From the NCBI GenBank assembly GCA_948144175.1, contig CANXME010002306.1, positions 175,001 through 239,000 of the forward strand: 64,000 nt of DNA, given 5' to 3'. Shown here one piece after another: positions 15,341-62,279 of the stretch (position 1 is the stretch's first letter; each line of letters starts with the position of its first letter). The DNA comes from Closterium sp. NIES-65. Taxonomy: Eukaryota; Streptophyta; Zygnematophyceae; Desmidiales; Closteriaceae. Position numbers and translations under genes: made by a program. The notes beneath the pieces are model-generated. The model did not search any database and had not been told where the DNA came from. It was given only the letters and a program-made list of their open reading frames with translations.

Positions 15341-15403
15341 GCACTGTACCGCTCTCACTGCGTGCCCTTCCCCTACTGCTTGCACTGCTTCACTCTCGTC
15401 GTC

Positions 15404-21550: not shown

Positions 21551-21682
21551 TGTCAAAATATTATAGCTTACTTTTTTGTGTAGGCTATAGTGGGGTATCT
21601 CATAGGGGGTACAACCCAACTAGAGTTTCCTATTTGTACTCACTTCATTCATAGTCATTTCATTCTCGTTCTAAATTTCTCA
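21551..21682 (+). repeat. 3' LTR of element 1
   Basis: A 132-bp copy starting TGTCAAAATATT and ending TTCTCA. It is preceded by the G-rich tract TATGGGGGTG, a likely polypurine primer, and followed by the duplicated target TTGCC. Confidence 0.95.
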
Positions 21683-22365: not shown

Positions 22366-22801
22366 TGTTGGGCTGAAACGCCCTAGGATCTTTGTAGAGT
22401 TTAAGTTTGAGTAGGATGATGTAATAGCGGAAGCGTTGAATAAGAAAGCCTTGAACCACCTTGCGCTGGTATGTGAGGGCAAAGTAAGTTGATTAAAATA
22501 GGCAAATACAAAGTTTTATATAAGAGTACAAGGAATACGAATAGATGTAATTAAACTACCTTGCTGTTGCGATTCGATAGAGTGCGACTCGGGCAACTGC
22601 TCAATGTCGAGTCAGTTGTGTGTCCTTGTTGTTGCGCTGTATTGGTCAAGTCAAAGGTCGCTGACCTTTGACCTTCCCGTAACCTTCAGGCGGTTACCCT
22701 AACCTCCGAGGGTTGACTCGCGATGCTTCGATTTGGACTTCTTCGCTTTGTGTCCTGAGTTTCGACACGACAGAGGCGCTTAAGACTTATTGTTCCCAAC
22801 A
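22366..22801 (-). repeat. 3' LTR (element at 22.4-28.5 kb)
   Basis: 436 bp, inverted-terminal TGTTGGG/CCCAACA. It contains the TATA-like and W-box-like sites also found in the other LTR. Confidence 0.95.
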
Positions 22802-27963: not shown

Positions 27964-28007
27964 GTCTTCTTCGATGTACTGAGTGTTGAATAATGAATTT
28001 TAACTCT

Positions 28008-37979: not shown

Positions 37980-40900
37980 GTGCAAGGCCAAATGGATGAA
38001 AGAGTTGGTGTAGAGGTAATGAATCATTCTTTCCATGTTATAAGAAATCCGTATCTAAACCTGTATCGCATGATACCATATCTTGGGAACTTTCAGTTTC
38101 AAGCTGCGGAAAAACTACTTGATACAGCTCTCTTTCACCTTCATTCCCTACAAGTCTTCCCCTCAAGCCGGTTCCCTGACGAGCTCGCCACCGTGGCGTC
38201 GCACTGTGTTCCTCTCTCAGTGGAGCGGACAATCGCGACGCGCGTGGGTTTGGACACGTGGCGAGTCCGCTCTGCGCGATCCACGCCGTGCTTCCCAAGG
38301 TGCCGCGTAGATTTTCTTGCTAAAACCTTCCTCGCACCACCATCCGAATTCTCAAATTCAAGGACAGGGAACCCGCTGCAAAGTTTGTGTGGAAATAGCT
38401 CGTCCGTCGAAACGCAACTGGCGCAGTTTAAAGTCCTTAACTCCGGCGGCGCGTCGCGGCTTACCTTTGCTTATGCTTTCGCGCACGGGTGGATTGGACC
38501 ACGCAGTCCAGAACTGATTGCTAGACTTAGCACCCGTTTTATAGCGAATCGTTCAGTTCGCACTACTGCTGCTGGGAAACACAGCTTGGGGTGGGAAGCT
38601 GGAACGAAGGCAGGAACAGGAAGGGAGGTATTGACCGGAGGAGCAGCCTTTACAGGAGCGAGTAGTCGAGAAACTCAATATCGAGGATTCGCCTCAGTGC
38701 ACCTTGGCTCACCTCAAACGTCGTTCCGCGAATTTGCGTCTGTCCAAGGGCGGTTTCAAGATCAGCAGCAGTTGCAAAGGAGCCAATTGCGTGAATTTCA
38801 GGTCCCACGATCAGCGCCGACGTCAGCAACGGCCGCGCCGGAAGATCCTAGCCTGGACGCGGCTGAGTCAGCGCGTGAAAATTACACGTCAGAAGCGGTA
38901 ACTTCCACGTCAGCGGGTGCGGAGTTCGCGGAGCCGCTAAAGCGCCCGCCTCGCGTCGGTTCCGCGATGGCGTTCGGCGATCCCGAGGCGGTGCGGGTGA
39001 CGGGGGAGGTGCGGCTGAGTGCGGACGAGTCGCACTTGTTCAGCACTCTGAGGGACGTGGTGTCGCACTACGGACTGGGCACACAGCTGCGCGTGGCGGG
39101 TGGATGGGTGCGCGATAAGGTGAGGTGAAGCGAGAGATTTGGCAAGGTGAGGTGTGAAGCAAAGGAGCGGCACTTATCAGCACTCTAAGGGACGTGCTTT
39201 GGTGTCGCACTATGGACTGGAAGCACGCAGCTGATGGTGGCGGGCGGACGGGTGCGCGACAAGGTGAGTGGTGACGCAAACGGGGTGTGAAGCAAGGGAG
39301 GTGTGACAGAAAGGAGGTGTGAAGCAAGAGAGCAGCACTCGAAGGGACGTGCTTTGGTGTCGCACTATGGACTGGAAACACGCAGCTGAGGGTGGCGGGC
39401 GGATGGGTGCGCAACAAGGTGAGGGGGGAGGCCGGAAAGGGGTAAAGCAAGCAAGGGAGGTTCTTTGGCATTGACACCACTGCACTCGACAACCTGCTGG
39501 GGATTCGATTCGCAGGGAAGGTCAGTTAATGCTCTCCCTTTCCCTCTCCCGCTTTGCTTTCCCTTCCATTCCTCTTATCCCCTTTTTGTCCATTCTCTCC
39601 TTTGCCCATTCCTGCTCAGCTTCCAGTCCAACCCTCTCCACCCCACTCCACCCCACTGAATCGCAGCTGATAGGCCGGGACTGCATAGACATTGACATAG
39701 CTCTTGACAACCTGCTGGGGCGGAAATATGCAGAGAAGGCAACTTGTTGATTCACCCCCTCCCATCCCTCTCCACCCCTCTGCACCCCTCTCCATCCCAC
39801 TCAATCGCAGCTGATCGGGCGCGACTGCATAGACATTGACATAGCTCTGGACAACCTGCTGGGGAGGGAGTTTGCAGAGAAGGTCACCGAATACCTCAAG
39901 GAGCGAGGGGAGGTCGTGCGGGGCGTGGGGGTCATCCAGAAGTGAGTGGGGGGCTCAGGGCGTGGGGGTTTAGGGCGTGGGGGAAAGTGAGTGGAGGGTT
40001 TAGGGCATGGGGCAAAGTGAGTGGAGGGAATTCAGAAGAGGGTTCGGGGTATAGGGTTTGAGAGAGTTTGCAGAGAGGGTCACGGAATATCTCAAGGAAC
40101 GAGGGGAGGTCGTGCGGGGCATGGGGGTCATTCAGAAAATGAGTGGGGGGTTTAGGGCTTGGGGGAAAGTGAGTGGAGGGAAGTCAGGAGAGGGTTTCGG
40201 GTATGGGAGTTGAGAGAGTTTGCAGAGAGGGTCACGGAGTATCTGACGGATTAGGGGAGGTCGTGCTGGGCATGCAAGTCATTCAGAAATGAGTGGCGGG
40301 TTTAGGGCTTGGGGGGAAAGTGAGTGGAGAAGTCAGGAGACGGTTTAGGGCATGCAGGTTGAGAGAGTTGGGCCAAGGAAGGAGCGAGGAGAGGTCGTTC
40401 TGGGCATAGGGGTCTTCAAGAAATGAGTGGCGGGGAGTGAGGCGAGGGTTGGGCCATGCTGTGTGAGGGGCTGTGCTGCGCTTACCTTACCACCTCTCTC
40501 GCTTGTAGTTCAAAAGTCGCTACTGTCTATGTAGTGTGTTTGAGTCGACTCCCAACACACTTGGCCCATGCAGGGCAAGGGGCTGTGCTTACCTTAACAC
40601 CACTCGAGTGGCTTACCTTTGCACCATGCTCGCTTGTAGTTCATGTGAAATGTCGCCACTGTACTTCTCCTTCGCTTGTCTGGCCATGTGTGTGCTTCCT
40701 ACATGGCCATGTGTGCGCTTCCTACATGGCAATGTGTGTGCTTCCTACATGGCCATGTGTGTGCTTCCTACATGGCCATGTGTGTGCTTCCTACCTACTC
40801 CTGCAGGAACCCCGACCAGTCGAAGCACCTGGAGACGGCAACGATGATGATTCACGGCATGTGGATCGACTTTGTGAACCTGCGGGCCGAGGAGTACGCC

Positions 40901-43900
40901 CACGACTCCAGAATCCCTCACACCATTGTGAGTGCTCTCTCTTACTGGTTACAGTATTAGACATGGTTACAGGGTTACTAGCTGATATGGCTCTGTCTCA
41001 GAGGGCACAATAGTACACCCACGAATCCAGAATCCCACCTTTCTCCCATAGTAAGAGCTCAATATTTCCGGCGAGCTGCTAGATGTATGGCTTTTGAGTC
41101 GACTCAAAAGCATAGTAAGAGCTCAATATTTCCTTGATGGCCGAACGGCAAGGTTCAGGCGAGCTGCTATTGCTTCAATTTGTTCATTCCCCCTCACGTC
41201 CCCGTTGCTTCCGTGGCAGGAGTTTGGGACAGCAGAGGAGGATGCTCTGAGAAGGGATTTGACGATCAACAGCATGTTTTACAACATCAGCACGGAGCAA
41301 ATCGAGGACCCCACTGGGCGAGGTGAGAGGAGTGGTGAGGCGTGTGAGTGAATGAATGTGTGGGCCGAGACATGAACATCGACAGTCTGAATATGTGGAG
41401 GATGGACCTGACCGTCGACCTGAATATGCTTTTCAACATTTCAACGGAGCAAGTGGAGGACCCCACGGGGCGAGGTGAGAGGAGGGGGAGAGTGAGGCGC
41501 CTCATAGATGCTGTGGTGGGGTGGTCGCTCTGAGGAGGGATCTGACGATCAACACCATGTTCTACAACATCCAAGTGGAGGACCCCACCACTGGGCGAGC
41601 GAGGTGAGGAGTTTGTTGTGGTGAGGCATCTTCTGCTTTTTGAGAATTCTCAAAAGTGAGGCATCTTCTGCTTTTTGAGAATTCTCAAAAGTGAGGCATC
41701 TTCTGCTTTTTGAGAATTCTCAAAAGTGAGGCATCTTCTGCTTTTTGAGAATTCTCAAAAGTGAGGCATCTTCTGCTTTTTGAGAATTCTCAAAAGTGAG
41801 GCATCTTCTGCTTTTTGAGAATTCTCAAAAGTGAGACATCTTCTGCTTTTGAGAATTCTCAAAAGTGAGGCATCTTCTGCTTTTTGAGAATTTTCAAAAT
41901 TGAGGCATCTTCTGCTTTTTGAGAATTCTCAAAAGTGAGGCATCTTCTGCTTTTGAGAATTCTCAAAAGTGAGGCATCTTCTGCTTTTTGAGAATTCTCA
42001 AAAGTGAGGCATCTTCTGCTTTTGAGAATTCTCAAAAGTGAGGCATCTTCTGCTTTTGAGAATTCTCAAAAGTGAGGCATCTTCTGCTTTTTGAGAATTC
42101 TCAAAAGTGAGGCATCTTCTGCTTTTTGAGAATTCTCAAAAGTGAGGCATCTTCCGCTTTTGAGAATTCTCAAAAGTGAGGCATCTTCTGCTTTTTGAGA
42201 ATTCTCAAAAGTGAGGCATCTTCTGCTTTTGAGAATTCTCAAAAGTGAGGCATCTTCTGCTTTTTGAGAATTCTCAAAAGTGAGGCATCTTCTGCTTTTT
42301 GAGAATTCTCAAAAGTGAGGCATCTTCTGCTTTTGAGAATTCTCAAAAGTGAGGCATCTTCTGCTTTTGAGAATTCTCAAAAGTGAGGCATCTTCTGCTT
42401 TTTGAGAATTCTCAAAAGTGAGGCATCTTCTGCTTTTTGAGAATTCTCAAAAGTGAGGCATCTTCTGCTTTTGAGAATTCTCAAAAGTGAGGCATCTTCT
42501 GCTTTTGAGAACTCTCAAAAGTGAGGCATCTTCTGCTTTTGAGAATTCTCAAAAGTGAGGCATCTTCTGCTTTTGAGAATTCTCAAAAGTGAGGCATCTT
42601 CTGCACGCCACTTTCCCCCCCACCAGGCCCTATACGACCCTCGTTCGTTGCTCTTCCTATCATCCAGCCAAGGCACCTAACCTCCCGTTCCCCCTCCTCC
42701 CCCACTCAGGAATATTGGACTCGAATGGAGGCCCCATCCACACGCCTCTCCCTCCCTTCCCACCAGACCCTATACGACCCTTGTTGCTCTTCCTATCATC
42801 CAGCCTGCACCCCACACTCACCAAAGCCCCCACCCCCTCATTCCCCCCCACATCCCTCCCCTTCCCAGGAATCGCTGACCTGAATGGGGGCATCATTCGC
42901 ACGCCTCTCCCTCCCCACCAGACCTTTCTCGACGACCCTCTCCGAGTGCTTCGGGCTGTCAGGTTCGGTGAGTGGTCCTGCTGCTGTTCGGTCCTGCTGT
43001 TCCTTTCAACTGCATGTTCCCTCCTTTCCCCCGTTACCCCCCCGTTCCCCATTATCCCGCCATTCTCCCTTTATCGCTCCCTCCCCCCTGTATCCCCCCA
43101 TCCTGCCGCTGTGCGGTCCTGCTGTTCCTTTCAGCTGCCCGATTCGGCTTCTCATTGGACGAGGAGTTGCGGGCAGCTGCAGCTTCGGAGGAGGTTCGGA
43201 CAGCGCTAGGAAACAAAGTCAGCAAAGAGAGGATCGGAAAAGAGGTGCGTGTAAGAGAGAGGTACGGGATAAAGGTATGGGATAGAGGTATGGGATAGAG
43301 GTATGGAGTACAGTACGGGATAGATGCACGAAGTTTCCACTGGGTGCATTTGGGATTACTCAATCGACAGAAGTATTTTTTTTGGTGCCCGAAAATGCGC
43401 CTCTTTTTTAGGCACCACTAAAGTCGTCTCACTGGGCGCATTTGAGAATGCTCAATCAACACAAATTTGTACCAATGGCCTCACTCAGTCACTTAGCCAT
43501 GATTTGTCTGTCCCCTTACACCCGTTTTCCCTTTCCTCCTATTCTTCTCTTCCCACCCCTCACAGGTAGAGGTGATGCTCAAGTCCCGTGACCCCTATGC
43601 AGCTATCTCCCTCGTGGTCGACCTGAACCTCTTCCCCACCGTCTTCCCATGCCCGCTCTCCGCGTGCTGCTTCAACTGCCTCCTTACGCCTGTTTTCCCC
43701 TTTCTGTCTTTCCTTCCGCCCCTCACAGGTAGAGCTGATGCTCAAGTCCCGTGATCCCGATGCAGCTATCTCCCTCGTGGTCGACCTCAACCTCTTCCCC
43801 ACCGTCTTCCTGTGTCTCTCTCCTCTTCCCTCCCCTCTCCTTCACAGGTAGAGCTGATGCTGAAGTCACGCGATCCCTACGCAGCAATCTCCCTGGTGGT

Positions 43901-44367
43901 CGACCTCAACCTCTTCCCCACCGTCTTCCCGCTCCCCCACGCCCTCTCGCACACTGCTGATGTGCCCCCTGACGACGAGTTACCTGGGTGAGTAACGTGG
44001 TAACCAGAGACAGTAATATGTGGCTTGTGCTTCAAACATGTCCCAATTCCCCTTACTCCCTCATGCCGTTTCCCCCGCTCCCTCTCCCCTTTCTACCCCC
44101 CCACCCTTTCCCCCTCTCCCCTTTCTACCCCCCCACCCTTTCCCCCTCTTCCCTTTCTATCCGCCTCCCCTCCCCTTTCCCCCCTCCCCTCGTTTTTCAC
44201 TTCCCTTGCAAGTCCACTTTTCTATTTTCTCTAGAGCTTCTCTCCCAAACGCTGTCATTCCACACCATGTATCGTCCATTGCACTCACTCCCTGTATCGT
44301 CCATTGCACTCACTCCCTGTATCGTCCATTGCACTCACTCCCTGTATCGTCCGTTGTACTCACTCCC

Positions 44368-44406
<39 letters not shown>

Positions 44407-44422
44407 AGAGAGTGTGTGTGTG

Positions 44423-44453
<31 letters not shown>

Positions 44454-47400
44454 GTCCCACATGCATCAGCCTCTGTGAAGCTTCATTTGCAGCCACTTGC
44501 ACACGCCTGCACCAATGGGAGAAACACCTGCCCCAGGTAATGTTCACCCTAAACCGTCCTCCAGATATAACCTCCCCCAGCTACAGCCTGTCTTCAGATG
44601 CAGCCTGTCATCAGATGCAGCCTGTCCCCAGATGCAGCCTGCAACCCATTCATGAACCACACAGAAAGCACCATGCTTTTGTATTGCTTGATCTGTGGCC
44701 CTTGACTCACTCCCTCTGCTGTTCTGCATGTGTGCCACGTGGCAGGCTCTGATTGATCACTTGTCGGACCTTAGTGTGGGGCTGCTGCTGGCGGCGCTGC
44801 TGATGCCTCTCAGGCACGCCCACTACCTGGATAAGAAGAAGAAAGAGGTGAGAGAGTGGTAGAGAGGGGTGGAGAGGGGTAACAAGGGGTGAAGATGGGG
44901 TGGTGAGCGGTTGTGATGGGTGAAGAAGGGTGCTGGCGGCGCTGCTGATGTTTCTGAGGCACACGCACTACCTGGATAAGAAGAAGAAAGAGGCGAGGAA
45001 AGGGTGGAGAGCGGTGGAGAGTGGTGAAGAGAGGTGCTGGCGGTGCTGCTGATTCTTCCCGCATGCGAATTACCTGGATAGGAAGAAGAAAGAGGTGAGA
45101 GGGGTGGCGAGGGGTGGAGAGGGGTAAAGCTGGGTTGTGAGAGGGATGAAAGGGGTTGCTGGCAGCACTGCTGATTCCTTACAGGCACGTGCACTACCTG
45201 GACAGGTTGAAGAAAGAGCTAAGAGGGGTGGAGACTGGCAACGAGGTGTGGAGAGGTGGTGAGAGGGATGAAGAGGAGTGCTGCTGTTCTGACTGATGCC
45301 TCTCCAGCACGTGCACTACCTGGATACCGAGATGACAGAGGTGAGAGACAAGCGGTGGTGAGGGGCGGCCACCGCTGCTCCTGTGGTTGTGACTGATGCC
45401 TCTTAGGCGCAAGCATCACCTGGATAGGAAGCAGACAGATAAAGGACCTCTCAAACCCTCAAACCCTCAAACCCGAAAACCCGCAAACCCTCAAACCCTC
45501 ATCAGACGAGTTCTTTGGCGCCTCAGATTTGAGCCTTCTCTTTGTCTTTGCATGTACCTTTGCAGGTGCCCTTCGCGCAACACATCGCGCTGGACTCACT
45601 CAAGCTCAAGCGAGCCCCTGCAGGGTGTTTTTGAGGCGCCTCAAAAACGACCTCAACACATCGCGCTGTACTCACTCAAGCTCAAGCGAGCCCCTGTCCC
45701 TGTCCCTCCACTTTCTTGAACCCCGGAATCTTAAACCCAAACCCCCGAACCTCCCCATCCCCTCTCCATGTCTTGTCTCGCTGCAGGTGCCATTTGCACA
45801 ACACATTGTTTTGGACTCACTCAAGCTCAAACGAGCATATGCTGACATGGCAGGTGGCCCCACCCTTTATGCTGATGTGGCATGTGCCCCCACACCCTCT
45901 ATGTTGACATGCCTCTTGTTCAAATATTTCAATGCTACCTTCCCTCTTCACACAGCACTTAACCTTCTTTCACTCTTGATGATCCTCGAAGTTCCCTATG
46001 TCAAGTTCCCCCTTTCGCCTTCTCTCTCCCTCTGCCTCCCTCCCTCCATCCTGCCGCCTGCAGGTGGTGCTGCTGCATGCAGCAGCGGAGGACTTCTCTG
46101 CCCTGGCACCGCTGCTGGCCACAGGAGGAGATGCTGGAGGGAACGCAAAAGCCTTATGGAGTCATTCTTGCCCTCTCCGCCTCTGCTCCTTGCTCCCTCT
46201 TCCCCCTGCTGCTCCCTCAGGCGGTGCTGCTGCATGCAGCAGCGGAGGACTTCACTGCCCTGGCGCCCCTACTGGCCGCAGTACAGGGAAAAGGAGGAGG
46301 AAGCACAGAGGGAGTATGACATTATCCGTATCTTCTCTCTCCCTCCGCCTCCCTCCCTCCATCCTGCCGCCTGCAGGTGGTGCTGCTGCATGCAGCAGCA
46401 GAGGACTTCGCTGCCCTGGCGCCCCTGCAAGCCACAGGAGGAGCAGCAGGAGGGACACAAGACATTATCCTTATCCTCGTTACCTCTGCTCCTGACCGCT
46501 GCTCCACGCTCCCTCACCCCCCCCTGACCCCCTCAGGTGGTGCTGCTGCATGCAGCAGCGGAGGACTTCACTGCCCTGGCGCCCCTGCTGGCCACAGCAG
46601 GGGCAGAGGGAGCAGGGGCAGCAGTAGGAGGAGTGGGTGATGAAGCTCGAGCTCTCACGCTGATCCAACCCCCACATGAGGAGTTCCGAGGCAACCCAAG
46701 AGTGCTGGCAGGTGCGCTGGGTGCTGGCAGGTGCAGTGCGGTTGCTGGCCACAGCAGGGGCAGAGGGAGCAGGAGCAGCAGTAGGAGGAGTGGGTAGCAC
46801 GGCACGAGCTCTCGCGCTGATCTCACCCCCTTATTAGGAGTTCCGAGGCAACGCAAGGGTGCTGACAGGTGCGGTGCGGTTGGTGGGTCACTGGCAGGTA
46901 AGAAGGCACGAGGCCTTACTCTGATCGCACCCCGCATGAGGAGTTCCAAAGCAACGTAAGAGTGCTGGCAGGTGCGGCTGGTGGGGTGCTGGCAGGTAAT
47001 GAACCACGAGCTCTCACGTGAATCCCACCCCCGTATGAGGAGTTTCAAGGCCATGCAAGGGTGCTAACAGGTGCAGTTGGAGCTGGCAGTGCAGTGCGGT
47101 TGGTGGGGTACTGCCTGGCAGGTGCGCTTCTTTCTGCACTGCTCGTCTGCATTCCAACCCCCCATTCCAGAACCTTTTTGTCCTTTTCTTTTCTCCATCC
47201 CCCCTTCTTCCCTCACCATGCAAACTCCTCCGCAAGGTGAAGGGCTGCTGGCCGTCGGCTGTGCTGCTCGCCTCTATTCTGCCCCTCATCAAAAGCCCTT
47301 CTTCTCAAAACCTCCTTCCTAACCCCTCTTCCCCAAATCTCTCTTCCCTCACGCCCTTATTCAGGCAAGCTCCTCCGCAAGGTGAAGGGCTGCTGGCCGT

Positions 47401-48580
47401 CCGCTGTGCTGCTAGCGTCCACTCTGCCCCTTGCTCTGAAAGCCCTTCTTCCCAAACCCCCCCTGCTGCCCCCCTTCACTCAAATCCACCTGTCCTTCGA
47501 AATCCCCTCTCCTCCCTCCCCAGGCAAGCTGCTCCGCAAGGTGAAGGGCTGCTGGCCATCCGCTGTGCTGCTGGCCTCGACTCTGCCGCCCGTTTCATCG
47601 GCCGCCCGCAGTGAACAGTGTGGGCGGGAGGGGGAGGGGGCAAAGGGGGAGAGAGGCGAGGGAGAGAGGGAAGAGGAGGATTGCAAGAGGAGGCGGATGG
47701 AGGGGAAGGAAGGGGGTGCAGGAGAGGATGTGGGGAGTGGAAGGAAGGGGTGTGAGCAGAGCGAGTTTTATCTGCAAGTTCTACAAGCGGTGCATGCCAT
47801 GGGTATGTACTTGTATTGAGGTCACTATTGGGTGCAAGCATGTTGTGGTATGTGCTTGTATTGAGGTCACTATTGGGTGCAAGCATGTTGTGGTATGTGC
47901 TTGTATTGGGGTGACTTTTGACTTGATTCTTATGTCACATATTGGTGAATGCCATGAGTTGCCGATGTTGGCATGGTATGTGTTTGTATTAGGACTCAGG
48001 CAAAAATGCTCGTGTTTACGTCTGCATGCATCTTTTGCCCCCCTCCTTCCCCCTCCCCACCCCCCTCTCTCCCTGTTTTCACGACCAGCACTATTCTGAG
48101 GCTTCTGCCGTATTCATAACCTCCCTTCCGGCCAGGCTTGGATGGCGTGTGGGGCACGAAGCCCATATTCAATGCACGGGATGACATTTTTGCTGACTTG
48201 ACTGTGCTTTCAACCCCTTCCCCTACCAGGTTTGGATGGTGTGTGGGACACGAAGCCCATACTGAATGGCCGGGATGTGGTTGCTGCTCTGGAGCTCAAG
48301 AAAGGCGACCCACGTACCGGATACTGGGTACGTCAAGTGAACAAGTGTGTCAGAAGTTTGCCGATTGCACTTCCCAGTTGTGTAGTTCACATCTATTCCG
48401 ACACATCCCAGGCCTTGGCACGTCCAGTTCTTATGCGTGGCTTTTGTTTATGCTTGTGGTGTGCAGATGGATCGAGTGATGGAGTGGCAGTTAGCTAATC
48501 CAGATAATGGATCAACCGAGGAATTTACTGCTTGGTTGAAGACGCAGGCGCAAGTCCGTGAAGCGGGAAGTACCAAATGA
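37980..48580 (+). CDS. CCA-adding tRNA nucleotidyltransferase
   Basis: The enzyme adds CCA to tRNA 3' ends. Fourteen exons join in phase: 37980-39119, 39811-39941, 40807-40927, 41220-41322, 42869-42967, 43135-43244, 43848-43987, 44470-44536, 44746-44847, 45787-45849, 46537-46711, 47524-47802, 48230-48327, 48467-48580 (913 residues). Class II motifs: GGWVRDK (374-380), DID metal ligands (388/390), RRDLTIN (475-481), DDPLRVLR (520-527), then ARFGFSLDE. The C-terminal WPSAVLLAS, LDGVWDTKP and MEWQLANP match plant enzymes. The ~320 residues before the catalytic domain exceed a normal targeting peptide. The start is the first ATG, but later in-frame ATGs are possible and the extension may hold dual mitochondrial/plastid targeting. 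Exon 10 ends at an apparent GC donor. Exon 12 has an Arg/Glu/Gly-rich insert. Introns are full of decayed exon copies. Confidence 0.85.
39178..39418 (+). repeat. Two ghost copies of the exon-1 end with donor
   Basis: 39178-39263 and 39333-39418 repeat the last ~82 bases of exon 1 (GTGTCGCACTA-GGACTGG ... GTGCGC-A-AAG) and the following GTGAG donor and intron start. Both share changes absent from exon 1 (for example GTGCTTTGGTGTCG), so one was copied from the other. Spacing is about 155 bp. Confidence 0.85.
39460..40430 (+). repeat. Five partial ghost copies of exon 2
   Basis: Upstream of exon 2: 39460-39515 (CTCGACAACCTGCTGGGG) and 39667-39738 (nearly exact first half with its CAG acceptor). 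Downstream: about 40067-40138, 40215-40288 and 40377-40428 repeat the second half (GGGGAGGTCGTGCGGGGCAT) with the following GAGTGG. Reading frames are broken in several. Confidence 0.85.
40681..40794 (+). repeat. 23-bp minisatellite in intron 2
   Basis: About five copies of a 23-bp unit, TGGCCATGTGTGTGCTTCCT plus ACA, end just before the acceptor of exon 3. Confidence 0.9.
41010..41125 (+). repeat. Ghost of exon-3 end and a short duplicate
   Basis: 41010-41040 resembles the end of exon 3 (CCCACGA-TCCAGAATCCC). The word ATAGTAAGAGCTCAATATTT then occurs twice (about 41048 and 41112). Confidence 0.6.
41390..41603 (+). repeat. Two ghost copies of exon 4
   Basis: 41390-41473 and 41521-41603 repeat the second part of exon 4 (AACAT-TCAACGGAGCAA-T-GAGGACCCCAC-GGGCGAG), each followed by a GTGAG donor-like sequence. 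One copy carries a few added bases. Confidence 0.85.
41623..42604. repeat. 28-copy palindromic minisatellite in intron 4
   Basis: Twenty-eight complete units of 34 or 35 bp plus a partial 29th lie head to tail. Each unit is GAGGCATCTTCTGC followed by a perfect palindrome, TTTTGAGAATTCTCAAAA, and GT. In 34-bp units the palindrome is 20 bp (CTTTTGAGAATTCTCAAAAG); 35-bp units add one T. Only a few units carry substitutions (for example at 41833, 41867, 42144, 42489). Each palindrome holds one GAATTC. The array lies wholly inside an intron, between exon-4 ghosts and an exon-5 ghost. Confidence 0.97.
42706..42777 (+). repeat. Ghost copy of exon 5
   Basis: GGAAT-TTGGACTCGAATGG resembles the start of exon 5 (GGAATCGCTGACCTGAATGG), continues as ACGCCTCTCCCTCCC, and keeps the upstream CAG acceptor. 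It diverges after the CACCAGACC word. Confidence 0.8.
43566..43811 (+). repeat. Two extra copies of exon 7 with intact acceptors
   Basis: Copies start at 43566 and 43729, each after a CACAG acceptor. They repeat the first ~85 bases of exon 7 (GTAGAG-TGATGCTCAAGTCC through CTCTTCCCCACCGTCTTCC). Both keep an open frame over that part but lose the exon's 3' half and donor. They differ from exon 7 at several mostly silent positions. Confidence 0.85.
44268..44452 (+). repeat. Intron-7 repeats: 25-bp x4, (TG)n, G29
   Basis: Four units of TGTATCGTCCATTGCACTCA plus CTCCC (44268-44368) are followed by about 17 TG repeats (44369-44403), GAGAG, more TG, then 29 consecutive G (44424-44452), shortly before exon 8. 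Confidence 0.9.
44931..45440 (+). repeat. Five ghost copies of the exon-9 end
   Basis: Copies at about 44931-44997, 45034-45093, 45159-45219, 45279-45341 and 45384-45440 repeat CTGCTGATG...CACTACCTGGATA-GAAG, most with a GTGAGAG donor-like end. Spacing is about 105-125 bp and decay increases roughly with distance from exon 9. Confidence 0.85.
45566..45693 (+). repeat. Two extra copies of exon 10
   Basis: 45566-45619 (after a TTTGCAG acceptor) and 45657-45693 repeat CAACACATCGCGCTGGACTC and CTCAAGCTCAAGCGAGC. The copy at 45787 is chosen as the real exon because its frame continues to ADM and then the next exon, but the first copy could also be spliced. Confidence 0.75.
46064..46440 (+). repeat. 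Three ghost copies of the exon-11 start
   Basis: Copies at 46064, 46221 and 46377 follow CTGCAG or CCTCAG acceptors and repeat the first ~65 bases of exon 11 (GTGCTGCTGCATGCAGCAGC ... GCCCTGGC-CC). All keep frame over this part. Exon 11 itself (46537) is the only one continuing to a proper donor. Confidence 0.85.
46839..47070 (+). repeat. Three ghost copies of the exon-11 end
   Basis: Near 46839, 46939 and 47038, GAGTTCC-A-GCAACG-AAG and GTGCTG-CAGGTGCGG repeat the exon-11 3' end with its donor, spaced about 100 bp. Confidence 0.85.
47218..47440 (+). repeat. Two extra copies of the exon-12 start
   Basis: Copies near 47218 and 47365 repeat CTCCGCAAGGTGAAGGGCTG through the CTCTGCCCC region. 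The second has an intact TTCAG acceptor. The real exon 12 starts at 47524 because only it runs on to a donor in the right phase. Confidence 0.85.
48136..48210 (+). repeat. Extra copy of exon 13 with intact acceptor
   Basis: Starting after GGCCAG, the sequence TTGGATGGCGTGTGGGGCAC onward matches exon 13 in frame for about 45 bases, then decays and lacks the donor. Confidence 0.8.
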
Positions 48581-50086: not shown

Positions 50087-52853
50087 ATGTTGGCCATCTT
50101 CCAGAAGTCGATAGGCGAGGCGCCACAGGAGCTGATGGCGCCGAAGCTGAACCGATCGGCGTCCATGTCGGGCCGGCTCGACGCGAAGGAGATCCTTCAC
50201 GGCTTCAAGAAGGCGCACCCGGGCGCCGTGCTTATGCAGTTTGACGAGCAACACGCTATCGCGTACACGCACGACATGCAAGACTTTCTCATGCCCAGGT
50301 GGGTCGCAGCCTTCAGATGTTTCTTCATTCTCGGTGCATCCGTGCTTCTGGTCGTTGCGTGAGCTGTCATGGCTCTAAGCTTGAGCTGAAACATACCTTT
50401 ATTCTCGTTTTGTATAGTTTACTTCGTCAAAGAAACTCCTTCACGACATTCTACCCTAACCTCTTCCGCCGTTTCCAGCACCTGGGAACTTTCCGCGTAC
50501 GATGCCATCTCCTCCACCTCCGGAGTCAACTTCCAAGGGCCTCGCGCAGTTCGGGCACCTGCACTCTTTGTACTTGCTCCTCGCGGTGTTCCTTGTCCCT
50601 CTTCCGAGAGGCCCGGCTTGAACCTTAACTCGTTCATCCATGTTCTCCCGGTCAAATGTAGAACTTCGGGTACAGCGTCGGCAGCGGTGCTGCCTGGGCC
50701 GGCATGCCAGCATGGCCAACCCTCCCGCATTCTTTCCCTCTACTCTTTCCGCTCCCTCCGCTCCCCCCGTTTTAACAGGCAATTTGCAGCATGCGACGAT
50801 GTCTTCTGCGCGTTCGCCGGCAACATCGAGAACCTCGCGCAGCTGCGACAGCGGTACGGGCTGGACCGGCACGTGAGCGAGGTGAATCTGATCATCGAGG
50901 CGTACAAGACGCTGCGCGACCGCCGTCCGTACCCGCCGGACCAAGTCATCGCGGACCTCGCAGGCGCGTTCGCGTTCGTTCTGTACGACAACAAGGCCAA
51001 GACGGTGTTCGTGGCGCATGTGAGTTGGCGGAGGGGATAAGGGCGTATGAAACAGGACATTCTGGGAATGGGGAGCGATGTATGGTAGGGAGGAACGCAG
51101 CGTTCGCGTTTGTGCTGTACGGCAACAAGGCGAAGACGGTGTTCGTGGCGCATGTGAGTTGATTGAGTGGAAGTTGGTGTAGATGGCAATGCTAGCGATT
51201 TGGCATTGTTTGGTTAGGGTTATGGATAACCGGTCAGAGTTAGGGTTGCTTTGTGAGGCTCTTGTAGACATCGTTTAGTCGTGACCCGTTGAGCTAGTCA
51301 GAGAGAGAATCTGAAGAACAGAAGAACGAGGCAGGGTACAGTAGCGAAGATGACAGATGATGAGTCAGGAGGAATTAAGAGCCAGGGCGGGTGTCCAAAC
51401 TGAAGTCCGAGGATTCAAATTCACAGATGATGATCCAGAGGGGGATGAAGAGGAGACGAGGAGACGGGAATGGTGCTCTTTGTCAGAGGGCGCTTGCTTG
51501 CTAGATTCTACGCGTTGTATTCCGCTACCTTCCGCTCCGCCCCTCCCCCACCCCTACATCCACCATGCCGATGCTTCCCATTGTCACCACAAATACCCGA
51601 AAGGAAAGGTGCCCTTGTACTGGGGCAAGTGTTTGGATGACTGTTTGCTCGCGTTCCCATTCTCGCCTTCGCTTCCCTCCCCTCCCCCCTACACGTACCC
51701 CCACTGCCCCCACCAGGACGCGCAAGGCAAGGTGCCCTTGTACTGGGGCAAGTGCCTGGACGACGGAGTGCTCGCCTTCTCCGACGACCCTGCTGTGCTC
51801 AAAGCCGGCACCGGCTCCTCCTTCGCCCCCTTCCCTCTCGGTACGTCTCCTTCTCCTTCTTTGTTCTCAGTATGCGCCTGCCCCCCCGCCCCCCTTCTGC
51901 TTGGTACGTCCTTACCACTTCCCCCCCCATCGCGTTCGCGGACGACCCTGCTGCCCTCAAGCCTCGAACTGGTTCCTCCTTCACCCCCTTCCCTCTCGGT
52001 ATGCGCTTTGCCCCCATCACGCATCCCATCCACACATCTCTTCACACATCCCATCACACACCCCATCCCACATCCCTTCAAATTCCATCCCACATCCCAT
52101 CCCACATGCCATGGCACATCCGTTCACACACCCCATCACACACCCCATCACGCACCCCATCACACACCCCATCACGCACCCCATCACACACCCTATCACA
52201 CACCCCATCACACACCCCATCACACACCCCATCACACACCCCATCACACACCCCGTCACACACCCCATCACGCACCCCATCACACACCCCATCACACACC
52301 CCATCACGCACCCCATCACACACCCCATCACACACCCCGTCACACATCCCATCACACATCCCATCACACATCCCTTCCCACCCTGAGAAGCAGCTCAAGG
52401 CCATTCAGCACGCGGACAGCCAACTTACCCCCACTTTTCTCCCTGTCACCCCTTGGCAACCCTTGTCAACCTTTGTCACCCAGCCCCACCCTTCGTCACC
52501 GCATCCCACCCACATTAGGCTGCTTCTAATTCTCGGACGGTGGGCTCCGCATTTTCACGGACCCCAAGAAGCAGCTCAAGGCCATTCAGCACATTACCTG
52601 CCAACTTACCACCGCTTCATTTCCTGTCACCCCTTGTCACCCCTTCTCACTTATCCCCACTCATGCAGGCTGCTTCTACTCTTCTGACGGTGGCCTCCGC
52701 AGCTTCACAGACCCGGAGAAGCAGCTCAAGGCCATTCAGCACATTGACAGCCAGGGGGAGCTGTGTGGTGCCACCTTCAAGGTCGACAGCCAGCAGGATC
52801 TGACTCAGATGCCTCTAGACTCCAAGGACGACAGTGGACGGGGCTGGTCGTAA
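50087..52853 (+). CDS. AILP1-like protein (YGL and LRDR motifs)
   Basis: Four exons: 50087-50298, 50779-51019, 51717-51840 and 52669-52853, all in phase, 253 residues. It starts MLAIFQKSIGEAP, matching the MLA-F-K start of aluminium-induced / stem-specific TSJT1-like proteins (DUF3700). The defining YGL (97-99) and LRDR (116-119) motifs are present, followed by FAFVLYDNKAKTVFVA, GKVPLYWG and GCFYSSDGGLRSF. The fold is the class-II glutamine amidotransferase-like (Ntn) type, but family members lack a demonstrated amidotransferase role; many are induced by stress, auxin or starvation. Length is normal. The very end is less conserved. Introns contain decayed exon copies. Confidence 0.88.
51094..51154 (+). 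repeat. Ghost copy of AILP1-like exon-2 end
   Basis: GCGTTCGCGTTTGTGCTGTA onward repeats the last ~55 bases of exon 2 with its CAT|GTGAGTTG donor, about 135 bp downstream. The donor is intact, so an alternative splice is conceivable. Confidence 0.85.
51578..52001 (+). repeat. Ghost copies of AILP1-like exon 3 on both sides
   Basis: 51578-51650 repeats the first half (AAGGTGCCCTTGTACTGGGG). 51926-52001 repeats the second half (GACGACCCTGCTG-CCTCAA through CCCTTCCCTCTCG and a GTATG donor). Confidence 0.85.
52125..52376 (+). repeat. 12-bp minisatellite in intron 3 of AILP1-like gene
   Basis: About twenty regular copies of ACACCCCATCAC, with GCACCCC and CCCGTC variants, preceded by degenerate units from about 52020. 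The unit is a multiple of three, giving His/Thr/Pro-rich spurious frames. Confidence 0.9.
52383..52600 (+). repeat. Two ghost copies of AILP1-like exon 4
   Basis: 52383-52430 and 52517-52600 repeat GAGAAGCAGCTCAAGGCCAT and, in the second, the exon start with a TTAG acceptor (GGCTGCTTCTA-TTCT-GACGG). Both end with the shared non-exon word GCCAACTTACC. Confidence 0.85.
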
Positions 52854-53394: not shown

Positions 53395-53515
53395 TGAGGA
53401 AAGTAGAACGAGAATGAATGACTAAGGAATGGAAGTGATACAAATATGCTACACTAGAAATGTGTACCCCATATAGGCTACCCCACTATAGCCTACACAA
53501 TATTATAATTCGACA
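53395..53515 (-). repeat. 3' LTR of element 2
   Basis: 121 bp, reading TGTCGAATTATAATATTGTG on the minus strand and ending TTTCCTCA. It is shorter than, and clearly diverged from, the 132-bp LTRs of element 1. Confidence 0.9.
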
Positions 53516-53624
53516 CACCCCCATAGGCAAAGTGGGGGAGAACAAGGGGTCACAAGACCAGTCAAGCAAAGCAGACAGTCCGAGCACAAGGTCAAGGCCA
53601 CAAGGCCAGTTCACATGCAGGAGT

Positions 53625-53664
<40 letters not shown>

Positions 53665-56600
53665 CTAAACAAGCAAGAGCAGGTATATATATATATATAT
53701 GTAAGAGTACAAGCAAGGTCAAGGGGTGCGCAAGTGAGGCAAGACATGCACAAGACCCAGCTGAGTGCAGAAGCGCTGATGATCACAAGGCGGAAGTGCC
53801 TTGGTGAAAACATCAGCAGTGTTGGCCTCAGAGGCCACGTACGCAAGTCGCAATTGACCACGCTGCTGCAACTCACGAGCAAGAAAGTAGCGGAGAGCAA
53901 TGTGCTTCGTTCTGTGCTCCAGGCACTGCTCCCGACACAAGGCCAGCATGGCCTTGTTGTCTACGTACAGCACTGGAGGAGAACGAGGCGGCTCTCCGAG
54001 GTCAGTCAGCAGGTAGGTGAGCCAACGAAGCTCCTGTGCAGCCATGGCCCCGGCGTAGATCTCAGCCTCACAACTGGAGCCGAGAACAGAAGACGAGCGA
54101 GTAGCCCGCCACGAAACAGAGCCGGAACCAAGACTGAAGGTGTAACCCTGTGACGACCGCTGCGTAGCCTAGTCGTCAGCCCAAGAAGCGTCCGCGTGCC
54201 CAGTGAGGACCACTGGACTCCGCCCTCCAAGCACTAGCCCCATGCCCGACGTACTGCACAAGTAGCGCAACACCCTCTTCGCTGCAGCCATGTGCTCTGG
54301 TCTGTGTCTCCCAGGAGCAACATAGCGTGCAAGAATGCTAAGAGGGTATGCAAGGTCAGGTCGTGTGCAGGTCATGAGGTACATGAGGCAGCCAACAAGC
54401 TCTGGGTACGGGCCACTCGACTCTACGGACTCATCCGAAGGCAGAGCTGAGAGTGAGTGGCGAGTAGACAGAGGAGTGGCCTGAGGCGAGGAGTACGTGA
54501 AGCCGAAGCGCTGAAGGACCTACTGCACCATGTGTGACTGAGTCAAGGTAATGGTGCAGCGTGCTCTGTCCCGGGTGATCTGCAAGCCAAGGTAGCTGCG
54601 CAGTTCATCCAGGTATGTGCACGTGTGTCTCTTCTGCAGCTCGGACTTCACGTGGGCGAGTCCAGCAGTGTCAGCTGTGGCAAAGACCAAGTCGTCGACG
54701 TACACGAGGATGTAGAACGGCGGCAGAGAGGTGTCGGTGCGCAGAAACAACGACGGGTCAGCAGTAGAGGGAGCAAACCCAAGAGCCGCAAGCGTAGTCC
54801 TCAGTGTGTCGTGCCACTCGCGCGGTGCCTGGCGGAGACCGTAGACTGGCCGTCGGAGGCTCCACTGGGTGCCAGGAGGGAAAGTCCCAGTGAAGCCAGG
54901 TGGACAGCGCAGCCAGATCTCCTCGTGCAGGCTACCCTGCAGGAAAGCAGTGCTGAAGTCAAGGGAGTGAAGCTCGTAGTCACGCTGAGCGGCTATGTGT
55001 AGCAGCACCCAAAGAGTGGTCATCTTCGGGGTGGGAGAGAAGGTCTGAAAGTAGTCAACTCCCTGCCACTGACTGAAGCCACGAGCCACGTACCGCGCCT
55101 TGAAGACAGGTGGAGAGCCCGGCAGCCGCTTCACCCTGAAGATCCACATGCCATTGACGATGTTCGGCCCAGGAGGAGGAACCGTGTCAACGTAGGTGCC
55201 TGTGGACTTCCAGGAAGCCATCTCTGCATCCATAGCTGCCTGCCACTGAGAGGAGTAGGGACCCTCTACGGCCTCCGCGTAAGAGCGCGGAGTCGGGATG
55301 TCTAGTGCATCCGGGTCTCCCTAAGGGGTAAGCAGTACGGACGCGAGATGAGGTGAAGCAGCAGCCAGAGACTGGAACTCCTCCTGCCCGTCCTCAAGGA
55401 CGTTCGTGCCAAGAGCACACTCACCCCCGACGGACGGAGGACAGACAGACGCAGACTCAGCAACAAGACTAGCAGCGTAGTCTACACGAGAGTGAGCAGC
55501 AAAGTCGATGAGCTCAGCAACAAGAGCAGACGCAGCAGTGGACTCAAAAGAGGGGTCAGTGACGACAGTAGCAAGGAGACGCGTGACGGTAGGACTGGCA
55601 GCACGAAGAGAGTCCGACTCCGGGTCGGCAAGTGCAGGAAGAGAGGACTCAGGAGGAGAAAGCAAAGGGACACGCAGAGGAGCAGTGGACGGACGTAGAG
55701 ACATCCGGTGCGTGCCAGGGACAGGAGGAGGACGCTGACGCGAACCGCGACCACTAGCGCGAGCAGCACGAACAGGCGACGCGGGACGAGACGCAGGCTC
55801 ACGACGCTCAGCATGACCTCCAGTAGGACCAGCGTAAAGAGAGGGAGCAGGCAGTGGGGAGGCGGGCGGTAACTGTGACTGTGACTGGACAGGCGGTGGA
55901 CACTCTACAGGAGCAGAAGGACCAAGAACCTGCTGAAGGAGCGGAAAGAAATACGGCCGAGGCCGTGCGGCGACTCCAGACACAGCAGGGACAACACCAG
56001 CACCCTCAGCGGCAGCACCAGCGCCAACAGCACTTCCAGCTGCAGGACCTCCAGTAGTACCAGCAGCACCCGCAGCAGGACCACCGCCAGGACTGACAGC
56101 AGTAGCCTCAGCGCCAACACCCTCAGCAGCTCCAGCTCTAGTCGTACCCGCAGGCCCAGCAGCTCCAGCACTCCCAGGACGAGCACCTCCAGGACCGGCG
56201 GCACCAGCACCCTCAGCGGCCGAAGAAGCTCCAGCTCCAGCAGTACGCCTCCAGCGCCGGGCAAACCACTCGCGCAGCTCCTGTGGAGAGAGTGGCTCCC
56301 GCCGAGACGAAGCACCCGGAGAACCTCCAGGCCCAGCACCGCCAGACGCCACACGAGCAGGTCCAGCGGCCGCTGGCTCAGCACCACCAAGCTCAGTAGC
56401 TCCAGACGCAGCACCCCCAGGCTCAGCAGCTCCTGACGTAGCACCCCCAGGCTCAGCACCCCCAGTCGTAGCACCCCCGGGCTCAGCACCCCTAGTCGTA
56501 GTACCCCCAGGCTCAGCACCCCTAGTCGTAGCACCCCCAGGCTCAGCACCCCCACTTGCAGCACCCCCAGACTCAGCACCCCCAGGCTCAGCGCCCACGC

Positions 56601-58576
56601 GCGCAGCACCCCCAGAGTCAGCACCCCCAGGCTCAGCACCCGCAGCAGTACAAGAGTCACCAGCAACCTCGACCGGCTCGACTGCGTCTACCTGGGACAC
56701 ACCTGAAGGGGCAGGACCCTGAGGGGGGAGGGGGTCTACCGGGGGGGGACCTGGTACAAGGAAGTGCGGTGGTTGGGGGAGGGAAGGAGTGCGGTAGGGG
56801 AAGAGGCGGTAGTAGGGGACTGACTCGTCGAACGTGACGTCCTGGGAGGACAGAACACGACGAGAGGTGGGGTGGTAGAACTGCCACCCAGGGGCGTCAG
56901 GGGGGAAGCCAAGGAAGACACAGGGAGCAGCACGAGGGGACAGCTTGTCCGGAGACAAGTCGCGGACAAACGCCCGAGATCCCCAAACACGGAACGCAGA
57001 CGCATTGCCGACCTTCCCCGTCCACAGCAAGGCTGGGGAGGTCTCCGGCCTGGAGACCCTGGGGTGAAGGTTGATCTGATGCGTCGCGTACCGAACCGCA
57101 AACGGCCATAGAAAATGGGGGGCAGCCGCATGCATCATGGACGTACGAGCGACGTCCATGACCATGCCAATGCGGCGCTCAGCAATCCCACTTGCTGTGG
57201 AGAGTCCGGAAGCGTAAAGGTCTGGCGGATGCCTTGCGCACGACAGTAGGCTCGCAGAAGGCCAAAGGAGAACTCTCCGCCTCGGTCAGAGTGCAGACGC
57301 AGAACAGGAAAGTCCGAGCCGAAGCTCCTCCTGAGCTGGAGACGAGCTGCGCGGATCCAGTCGATCAACACCTCAGTGACATCACCCTTGCTGCGCAAGG
57401 GGAAGACTGTGGTGTAACGCGAGTAGTCGTCAACCACCAGCAGGAAGTAGCGCTCGTGACCCTGTCCACGGACGCGGGCCGGGCCCCACACGTCCATGTG
57501 AAGCGTCTACAGCGGGGCCTCTGTCGGGGGAAACTGAGAGGAGTGAGGGGCAGCCCGGAGCCGCCCCTCGACACAGGGGACACAGGAAGGACCAGGCCCC
57601 GGAGGAAGGGGAGGGAGGGACCGGGGAAGACCAGAGACAAGGACACGGGAAGCCATGCCTCGGAGACGAGGTAGGGAGGGGTGACCAAGACGGTGGTGCC
57701 AGAGGAGAGTCTCGTGAGACAGGAGGCGACACGAGCAGGGGGCAGACTCAGAACCAGACTTGGACGCTGCAGCAAACACCTGACCCGACGCAGCTACCTG
57801 GCCAGAAGCAGGGACAGTAGGGGACCCAGTGGTCAGGGTGTAGAGGCTTGACCCCGGCCGACGCGAAAACGTGGCCAGGTGTCGGCCCGTGCGTGCGTCC
57901 GAGCAGTGGGTCACCCGCTGACTCGCAGGAGTAAACTCGTGAACCCCCGCATCCTGCAGGTCAGCACCACTCACCAAGTTCGTCGAGAACGAGGGGAGGT
58001 AAAGACCAGACAAGGTGCCAGAGGGGGCAGCCGGACACGGGAGGACAGTAGAGAAGTGAGAGAGGACAGGACCCCCAGAGGGGTCTACCAGGGAGACTGC
58101 AACCGGCCGACCAAGCGGCGTGAGTGTGGTGCGGTCTCGAAAGAAGGAGCGAGAAGCCCCCGAGTCAAGTGTGAAGGTGAGGGAGGCCGAAGCCGACGCG
58201 GTACCTGAGAGCGCAGCCTCACCAGTACCTGAGGGCGCAGACGCGCTGGCACCTAGAGCAGCAGCCTCACTAGCACCTAGCGCAGCAGTACCAATGCCCG
58301 GGTCGGGCTGGAAACACCGGTAATAGTCACCCTGATCACTAATAGTCACAGCATACATGGCAGCAAGGATAGCATCAAAGTCAAGATCATAGATAGCGAC
58401 ACCTGCCCTAGACAGCTCTCCCCAGCGGGGGATCTCACTAGCCTTTGGGAACTGCTGACGCCAAGCGTCCGTCAGGCGGCCAAAGCAGCGCTGGGTGGGG
58501 TGGGCACCCCCACACTGCTCACCCGGGCGGTCGCCGGAGCGAAGGACGTAGGTGCACGGGCCAAAACCCCCACCAC
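53516..58576 (-). pseudogene. Decayed gag-pol remnant of element 2
   Basis: It begins within the gag region (GGGFGPCTYVL). Protease DSGASRSFF is intact. Stops and shifts against element 1: TAG near 57507 before integrase (CAG in element 1), a one-base deletion near 57185 after the integrase SPQQ motif, TAG at 55321 (GAG in element 1), TAG at 54520 (CAG) and TAG near 54167 (CAG). RT keeps YVDD (54691-54702) and RNase H keeps GHADAS, AAQE and YVDNKA parts. A diverged GGAEP-type linker lies at about 56,350-56,650. It cannot make a polyprotein. Confidence 0.9.
53630..53702 (-). repeat. (TA)n microsatellites inside element 2
   Basis: Two AT runs (about 53634-53661 and 53682-53700) lie near the 3' end. 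The matching place in element 1 has only short TATATA words, so the runs expanded after the copies split. Confidence 0.85.
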
Positions 58577-58595
58577 TTTTTTTTTTTTTTTTTTT
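58577..58595 (-). repeat. 19-A tract joining 5' LTR to internal gag
   Basis: On the minus strand the LTR reads CGTTCT, then runs into 19 A, then GTGGTGGGGGTTTTGG of gag. In intact copies the LTR continues AAATTTCTCA and then the primer site. Confidence 0.9.
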
Positions 58596-58706
58596 AGAAC
58601 GAGAATGAATGAGTAAGGAGTGGAATTGATACAAATATGCAACCCTAGAAATGTGTACCCCATATAGGCTACCCCACTATAGCCTACAAAATATTATAAT
58701 TTGACA
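58593..58706 (-). repeat. Truncated 5' LTR of element 2
   Basis: Starts TGTCAAATTATAATATTTTG on the minus strand; the inner end (about 8 bases ending CTCA) is missing at the poly-A junction. Confidence 0.85.
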
Positions 58707-61138: not shown

Positions 61139-62279
61139 GTCGCCAATAATAGGGTTACCCTACTTGTTTTGAGAAAATTCTCGCGACCCCAGGCAATCGT
61201 CCTGCGACAACGAAACCCGAGTGCCCAAAACCAGAACTGACGCGATGATCGCAAACCATTTGTACTATTCACCACTCTCATAACTTGCTTACCAAGTAGT
61301 ACTCCTAGGCTAGGAGGCTCCAAGGCAGAAACTAACGCTAGTTGGCAAAAGCGAGTCGTTGATAGGTGTTTTTTTTTAGTGTGGAAGGAAATATAAGTCC
61401 ACCTCAACCATCTTAGTCAGTGTACGCTCTAATCTCTCCCTCACGTCACCGGTCTCGTGTTACAACCCGTACACCCACGGCACTTACGTTAGTAAACGCG
61501 ATTCGCGTTACTCGAGTCTTGCATTCAAGCTCGTGTCGCAGACGCAAGATCTTGTCACACTTGCTGCCATTCAGCCTCGTGTCACGATCGTACCATTTTA
61601 GGCACGGGTCGCTCACGCGAATGCCGTACTGGTTCGCGTAACGCACTCAGCCGTTAGTCGCACATGTTCCTCCTCGTCGGCCGCTCTTGCCCACGTCAGA
61701 CCGCTTTCCTCGTCGCCCGCGCTTTCCCTCATTACCCTCCCCGACCCTCTGGTCGCATATGTTCCCGTAGTTGCCCACGCTCTCCCACGTTAACCACACA
61801 TCCCCTCGTCGCAATTGCTAGTAGTAAACATACCGCGCTTCAGATCGTCACCCGCGCTCGCCTCATCACCCTCGTCGACCCACACCGATCCTCGCCGCCC
61901 TCACCTCCCTAGGTCTCCGACATTCCCTCTCGTCGCTCGCGCTTCCCCTCATCACCTGTGCCGACCCTCGCCGCCCTCGCCTCCCCTCGTCGCCCGCGCG
62001 TCCCGTCGTCGGGCTTGCCTCCCAGTCACTCGCGCTTCCCCTCGTCATCCGCGTTTCCATCCGCTCTTCCCCTCTCCCCATCTCACCATCTCCAGCCCAT
62101 CCTTTCTCCCTCATTCCTTCCGAAGGGGTGGGACAGATGGGGAGGAACAGATGGGGAGGAACAGATGGGGAGAAACAGAGGTGGTCGCTTCCGCCACCAC
62201 AATCGAATAGCGTTTTGATTCCCTCTCTGCTTCCCACCATCCTCCCCCCAGCTCTCTCCCTGGCATCTGCCCCCGTTCC
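61139..62279. other. Intergenic; becomes pyrimidine-rich
   Basis: Unremarkable to about 61,650, then C/T-rich with CGTCGCCC-like words resembling the flanks of element 1. Three GGGACAGAT/GGGAGGAACAGAT units lie near 62,130-62,175. No gene was recognised. Confidence 0.5.

Follow-up and report, generated by a model that had tools for sequence, protein, structure and literature searches.

Intron growth is usually attributed to transposons, and introner elements are repeated DNA that shapes introns genome-wide. Repair-mediated short duplications in vertebrates, as described in the excerpt of the report considered here, copy nearby DNA and can include exon–intron borders, and no constraint was seen in the two whole duplicated exons that were tested (Pace et al., 2009; PMC2671141). 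In potato, tandem duplication at exon sequence of RdRp has a peptide effect that can be hidden by splicing, according to the available part of that paper (PMC4974935). Tandem exon duplication, with mutually exclusive exons, likewise leaves tandem exon copies in the neighbouring intron, as far as the excerpted text goes (PMC9013439). Short tandem duplications are known to arise in mouse and human cells when staggered ends are filled in and joined, and in the sections at hand such duplications at breaks with 3′ overhangs are an outcome for which repeats at the break are unneeded (PMC8355091). The locus compared with these systems here is a gene of Closterium sp. NIES-65 whose introns hold many partial copies of its own exons. 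With a probability of roughly 0.8, these copies are relics of many direct tandem duplications, mostly of 100–200 bp, across one exon–intron border, and record an accretion of introns that is filtered by splicing.

The window, that is, the whole stretch of 64,000 nucleotides that was analysed, comprises positions 175001–239000 of contig C2008 (genome of 874 Mb in 2400 contigs), and the examination at the DNA level concerns one genome, that of NIES-65. The gene for a plant-type CCA-adding enzyme occupies 38,967–48,580 of the window and is modelled with 14 exons, 13 introns, and an in-frame end. All exons and exon copies given below are on the forward (+) strand, in window coordinates. The exons are located at 38967–39119 (exon 1, coding part from ATG), 39811–39941 (exon 2), 40807–40927 (exon 3), 41220–41322 (exon 4), 42869–42967 (exon 5), 43135–43244 (exon 6), 43848–43987 (exon 7), 44470–44536 (exon 8), 44746–44847 (exon 9), 45787–45849 (exon 10), 46537–46711 (exon 11), 47524–47802 (exon 12), 48230–48327 (exon 13), and 48467–48580 (exon 14, to the stop). 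Over exons 1–13 (547 amino acids), the model and P0002, an annotated protein of strain NIES-64, align without gaps and disagree at two residues, the assumed GC donor of exon 10, with which P0002 is consistent, included. Past exon 13, P0002 runs into another gene, and exon 14 has no counterpart in it. P0001, the NIES-65 model on contig C2008, equals our gene model over exons 1–11 and then includes intron sequence. A GC splice donor is apparently used by exon 10 (ATG/GCAGGT), and this donor region is tandemly repeated (45850–45911). Elsewhere in the window, open frames at 15341–21990, 22780–28000, and 53400–58676 resemble, by eye, remains of Copia-type retrotransposons, a long array of a 22-bp tandem repeat (62276–63999) reaches the window end, and four other open reading frames matched no Pfam family.

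Comparison of the exons of the CCA-enzyme gene with its introns (blastn, plus strand, E < 2e-4) yielded 30 direct partial exon copies, one at E = 1.6e-4 and the others at E < 1e-5, in nine of the 13 introns (1, 2, 3, 4, 6, 9, 10, 11, and 12); introns 7, 8, and 13 gave none at this threshold and on this strand. Self-comparison additionally found in intron 5 a duplicated acceptor region of 38 bp that includes four exon bases and is kept outside the 30. Five minus-strand rows under the E threshold were excluded from the count, namely two low-complexity purine runs (an exon 12 match in intron 7 and an exon 11 match in intron 10) and three rows from a part of exon 11 that is self-complementary. The first-pass annotation had described introns packed with copies of neighbouring exons, and self-comparison recovers the copies where it had placed them; its figure of ten introns is reached only if the acceptor copy of intron 5 is counted. 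Every one of the 30 copies sits in an intron adjoining its parent exon, the sole sub-threshold match in a non-adjacent intron being a purine run of exon 12.

Twenty-five copies include one exon border, five include none, and none includes both. Copies downstream of an exon represent its 3′ part and copies upstream its 5′ part, and identity between copy and parent ranges from 78.7 to 93.8% (n = 30). In self-comparison, the alignments continue at the same period from the exon part into a contiguous intron part, which indicates that the duplicated unit was genomic DNA; several copies retain a GT or AG border. Neighbouring copies are offset, start to start, by about 76 to 200 bp, so that the 90–165 bp first given was too narrow. 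Recognisable duplications with a period of at least 60 make up 3813 of the 7859 intron bases (49%); a further 984 (13%) belong to short-period repeats only. The earlier view that duplication across exon borders took place repeatedly, left copies of differing age, and lengthened the introns is upheld by the first of these proportions.

Exon 1 is represented by two copies of its 3′ part, at 39170–39263 (with donor GTGAGT) and 39333–39418 (with donor GTGAGG). Upstream of exon 2 lie a copy of its positions 34–76 (39482–39524) and a copy of its 5′ part with the acceptor (39667–39739), and downstream of it three copies of its 3′ part (40060–40137, 40212–40288, and 40379–40422). Exon 3 has a short copy of 25 bp in intron 3 (positions 87–111; 41012–41036), and exon 4 has two copies of its 3′ part, at 41426–41474 (with donor) and 41527–41599. 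Copies of positions 21–72 (42593–42642; the match at E = 1.6e-4) and 14–71 (42723–42781) precede exon 5, and the acceptor-region copy of intron 5, with four bases of exon 6, is found at 42976–43013 (parent, 43101–43138). Two copies of the 5′ part of exon 7, both with the acceptor, are located at 43566–43648 and 43729–43810. Exon 9 is followed by five copies of its 3′ part, at 44931–44992, 45035–45094 (with donor), 45157–45218, 45293–45340 (with donor), and 45393–45439. The 5′ part of exon 10, with the acceptor, recurs at 45566–45615, and its positions 13–50 recur at 45654–45691, in the second unit of a palindrome-tagged duplication that is single in the gene copy on contig C276 (see below). 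Copies of the 5′ part of exon 11 are at 46064–46128 (with acceptor), 46223–46300 (the 92-bp piece from 46238 on is missing in the C276 copy), and 46377–46452 (with acceptor), and copies of its 3′ part are at 46743–46868 (with an in-frame stop), 46906–46971, and 46995–47065 (with an in-frame stop; four palindrome-separated units in the C276 copy). The 5′ part of exon 12 is copied at 47220–47283 and, with the acceptor, at 47365–47428, the peptide of which is present in annotated P0001, and that of exon 13, with the acceptor, at 48138–48183.

This pattern probably arose as follows. A tandem duplication spanning one border would leave the gene with a pair of donors or of acceptors. Provided that the outer splice site were still used, which agrees with the NIES-64 protein model P0002, the extra exon piece would join the intron, which would become longer with the protein the same; a duplication inside an exon or round a whole exon would alter the protein and would presumably be lost. 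One-border tandem duplications would survive because splicing removes the extra copy, and introns would thus grow by accretion. Repeated rounds would act as a ratchet that assembles introns from exon edges, from which the polarity, the orientation, the single borders, and the mixture of ages would follow. The copied edges would decay neutrally, and the arrays could then expand or shrink. The duplications would most likely stem from staggered breaks or paired nicks that were repaired in an error-prone way, and some junctions may additionally have been left with a palindrome. On the best reading, then, the exon-border pattern follows from ordinary tandem duplication combined with a filter imposed by splicing; neither this filter nor the palindrome figured in the first-pass annotation. 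The five borderless copies among the 30, 2 of 37 proteasome copies that break the polarity, 9 of 29 sampled exon segments without a copy of at least 30 bp, and copy-derived peptides in some protein models (see below) count against it. A uniform rate is also opposed by the apparent rarity, at the exon-copy period, of intron-only duplications in the CCA-enzyme gene; these should be harder to see, because both of their sides decay, and a few were found with palindromes. After removal of small-period arrays and low complexity, the local duplications of the window all fall within a pair of neighbouring multi-exon genes, which may point to a gene-linked process instead of a uniform one.

The gene adjoining the CCA-enzyme gene, which we take to be of the DUF3700 type (presumably the name for PF12481), also carries exon copies: exon tails with the donor at 51100–51161 (parent, 50966–51027) and 51930–52001 (parent, 51772–51843), an exon head at 51577–51656 (parent, 51700–51779), and a piece of the last exon at 52380–52422 (parent, 52711–52753). 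A wider sample, picked without sight of copies, consisted of proteasome and chaperonin genes located by Pfam profile, and when both sets are pooled, 20 of 29 exon segments have copies and nine are without a copy of at least 30 bp. The polarity seen in the CCA-enzyme gene recurs in 56 of the 58 copies, and inverted ones are absent. The first-pass annotation had proposed a search over all genes of the genome; the neighbour, proteasome, and chaperonin genes examined here do contain exon copies.

The proteasome set comprises 13 loci drawn from 44 profile matches, the groups on C2400 near 3.70 Mb and on C1988 being left out. An extra copy at E < 1e-3 was found for 13 of 18 exon segments (12 of 18 with copies restricted to at least 30 bp; 10 of 16 if L026, which was selected after its copy pair was already visible, is dropped). 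Polarity is as expected for 35 of the 37 copies of at least 30 bp and against expectation for two, with none inverted (17 segments, L026 counted once). These loci are not all independent, since L036 and L037 are close relatives and L028 and L031 have a common paralogous exon; L027, L030, and L031 gave no exon copies. Among 11 chaperonin genes, each represented by its best segment, eight have copies (those of L059 are short, about 31 bp at E = 4e-4), all 21 copies have the expected polarity, none is inverted, and L065, L068, and L069 gave no exon copies. The chaperonin profile search by itself had returned a repeated piece in 4 of the 11 genes (by our own grouping, with 87 of 166 candidates scored). 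Comparison of the segments with other loci of their own family gave 8 rows for the proteasome and 12 for the chaperonin set, which we read as paralogous exons or copies thereof.

Of 15 arbitrarily chosen stretches of 10 kb, 9 held at least one local duplication. Inspection by eye identifies the duplications in L020 and L022 (genes that are presumably kinase-like and MYST-like) as exon copies, and several others, among the matches listed, resemble transposon repeats. The stretch L011 (C532:200001–210000) has long open frames, a GC content of 0.66, and no local duplications, and by tblastx it resembles none of the other sampled loci. Across 16 gene regions, 50 of 70 periods fall within 100–199 bp (median of this set, 145 bp for 68 offsets of 60–400 bp). 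In the chaperonin and proteasome sets, of which the proteasome set overlaps the first, periods scatter widely and only 38 of 70 fall in that range; a nucleosome-sized unit is therefore not claimed.

A second copy of the CCA-enzyme gene lies on contig C276; it is about 98% identical to the window copy, with differences at 235 of 12,078 aligned positions. It may represent the second haplotype or a recently duplicated gene, and the older state could be that of either. Length differences of at least 12 bases comprise pieces of 17, 28, 76, and 92 bp that C276 lacks and of 46, 92, 100, 227, and 408 bp that the window lacks; several of them are short-period repeats. The 76-bp piece (exon 10 copies) and the 227-bp piece (exon 11 copies) are unit duplications with palindromes between the units, and at both sites the other contig holds one unit without a palindrome. 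The copy number of the units thus differs between C2008 and C276, by recent duplication or loss.

A palindrome accompanies part of the duplications. Among perfect palindromes of at least 16 bp in the fetched loci, a recurrent class has the form TTTTGAG-NNNN-CTCAAAA with the centre TCGA, GCGC, AATT, or ACGT, and the pattern TTTTGAGNNNNCTCAAAA (TTTTGAG-NNNN-CTCAAAA) has 30,327 exact copies genome-wide versus four for the reversed pattern. Some members of the family form arrays with a period of 29–53, and often they stand between direct repeats. In the CCA-enzyme gene, one palindrome with a TCGA centre lies between two direct repeats of intron 3 (41090–41111; seen by eye, weak in the ungapped test), one with a GCGC centre lies between two exon 10 copies (45627–45648), and a unit of about 16 bp plus a palindrome with an AATT centre forms an array with a period of 34–35 (41621–42604); no strand is assigned to these features. 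Most exon-copy arrays of this gene are without a palindrome. Palindromes or close matches in or between exon-copy arrays were seen by eye at L009, L032, L061, and L063.

The window and the first loci had suggested a position between direct repeats, and flanking repeats were then tested at 20 further sites from among the matches listed (16 on contig C6 and four on C9; two C6 arrays and several C9 sites were skipped). Direct repeats of 20–94 bp, anchored within 15 nt on both sides, were present at 12 of the 20 sites. Among random positions the rate was 2 of 600 when tandem arrays were avoided and 90 of 915 in all. Six of the remaining eight sites have nearby repeats in a looser alignment, with scores of 56–117 against array-including control scores of 49 at the 90% level and 96 at the 95% level; L049 and L053 have practically no flanking repeats in that alignment. 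With array-including controls, 7 of 20 sites exceeded the 95% level and none the 99% level in the first test, and 7 of 27 palindrome sites exceeded the 95% level in another; both tests discriminated poorly.

These observations raise the alternative that the palindrome is a mobile element, which would insert as 20–30 bp with a long and variable target duplication and would have left the exon copies as old insertions with a decayed palindrome. The large excess of the palindrome over its reverse speaks for such an element, as do the anchored repeats at 12 of 20 sites, the two places of the CCA-enzyme gene at which palindrome-separated units face a single palindrome-free unit in the other copy, and the four loci with palindromes among exon-copy arrays. 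However, outside the 41621–42604 array the window has two matches (with at most two mismatches) against 30 exon copies, and L026, L029, and L035 hold young copies with no palindrome at 12 or more of 14 matches; the contrast in anchored repeats also shrinks against the array-inclusive rate and in the two tests just cited. The repeats that flank the palindrome are variable in length, unlike the fixed short target duplication of a MITE. No mobile element known to us makes target duplications so long and so variable, and exon-derived intron growth of this extent is likewise not known to us. We regard this explanation of the copies as unlikely. A broader version, in which introns are actively growing genome-wide as a palindromic insert of a fixed family (TTTTGAG, one of four main self-complementary centres, CTCAAAA) enters with a long target duplication of variable length, and in which repeated insertion near borders has rebuilt most introns from exon edges, is a minority possibility.

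A second alternative is that the copies are functional, as tandem alternative or mutually exclusive exons or as selected splicing decoys. The retained GT and AG borders would suit such a role, but with both borders in none of the 30 copies, none is usable as a cassette exon. Differences between exon and copy amount to 65/643, 60/641, and 131/633 at codon positions 1, 2, and 3 (30 copies of the CCA-enzyme gene). If the copy is free and the exon is frozen at positions 1 and 2 and free at third positions, a ratio of about 1:1:2, to which these counts are close, is expected under neutrality, whereas coding constraint on the copies would predict a higher third-position ratio. A test for unequal positions gave P = 2.6e-10, which is overstated because copies within one array share history. 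Frameshifts occur in 7 of the 30 copies and in-frame stops in two. Judged from these differences, the copies look neutral, and their first description as decayed fits.

Public protein models also bear on this alternative. By direct diagonal count, copy-derived repeated peptides are present in three of nine Closterium models, namely P0001 (a repeat of 22 amino acids), P0007 (two repeats), and P0009 (an exon 7 peptide three times); P0007 comes from strain Naga37s-1, and its repeats are the sole hint of such copies outside NIES-65. As some models of NIES-65 and Naga37s-1 hold such peptides, splicing may occasionally include some of the copies. By the same count, however, P0002, P0004, P0005, P0006, and P0008 have no repeated peptide and P0003 merely a short low-complexity one, and in the NIES-64 model P0002 the copies are spliced out. 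A blastp self-search of the nine proteins (P0001–P0009) detected no repeats, whereas the diagonal count did. Taken with the codon positions and the frameshifts, these models make a function of the copies very unlikely.

An artefact of assembly is scarcely credible, as divergence between copy and parent amounts to 6 to 21%, the arrays are common to contigs C2008 and C276 with differing copy numbers, and copy-derived peptides occur in the other-strain model P0007.

Other candidates were rejected. Whole-exon tandem duplication finds no example among the 30 copies, none of which has a whole exon with both splice sites, and retrocopied exons, made from mRNA and free of introns, do not agree with copies that carry a contiguous intron part. 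Inverted copies are lacking in the proteasome and chaperonin sets, and in the CCA-enzyme gene the minus-strand rows are low-complexity or self-complementary only.

If border-crossing tandem duplication with removal of the extra copy by splicing is the correct reading, Closterium introns gain length from accreted copies of the adjoining exon edges, and another route of intron growth can be read in the sequence. The conserved exon serves as a reference, and each duplication event can thus be dated; the rate, the size spectrum, the selection filter, and the junctions of intron growth would become measurable, and several related Closterium strains have been sequenced. The copies also bear on the choice of the spliceosome among near-identical splice sites. 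For annotation they are a warning, in that repeated peptides derived from exon copies have entered three of the nine public Closterium models examined.

For the assembly of 876 Mb taken as that of NIES-65, a mean intron length of 485 bp is given in the genome paper on the Closterium strain complex, the excerpted text of which has no mention of exon copies (PMC10407611). Titles and abstract openings of the open-licence papers listed contain nothing that describes exon copies of such extent or the accompanying palindrome. As far as these titles and abstract openings tell, the elements of the process are each known in outline, and the extent in the sampled genes and the palindrome are new to the literature found. 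An introner-like family is less likely: the repeated sequence in Closterium comes from exons of the gene itself and appears to vary between genes. In potato RdRp, a new intron arises, as the available part of the paper describes (PMC4974935), whereas in Closterium existing introns appear to grow. Tandem exon duplication, in the excerpt at hand, concerns whole exons that are chosen in splicing, in contrast to the 30 copies here, none with both borders (PMC9013439). The overhangs at 3′-overhang breaks are about 43–50 bp in the sections considered, whereas Closterium units are mostly longer and have a palindrome at some junctions (PMC8355091). In the vertebrate survey, as far as its excerpt reports, 4 of 824 donors were partial exon/intron and one duplicated exon was inverted, whereas in Closterium 20 of 29 exon segments have copies, often in arrays and in direct orientation throughout (PMC2671141).
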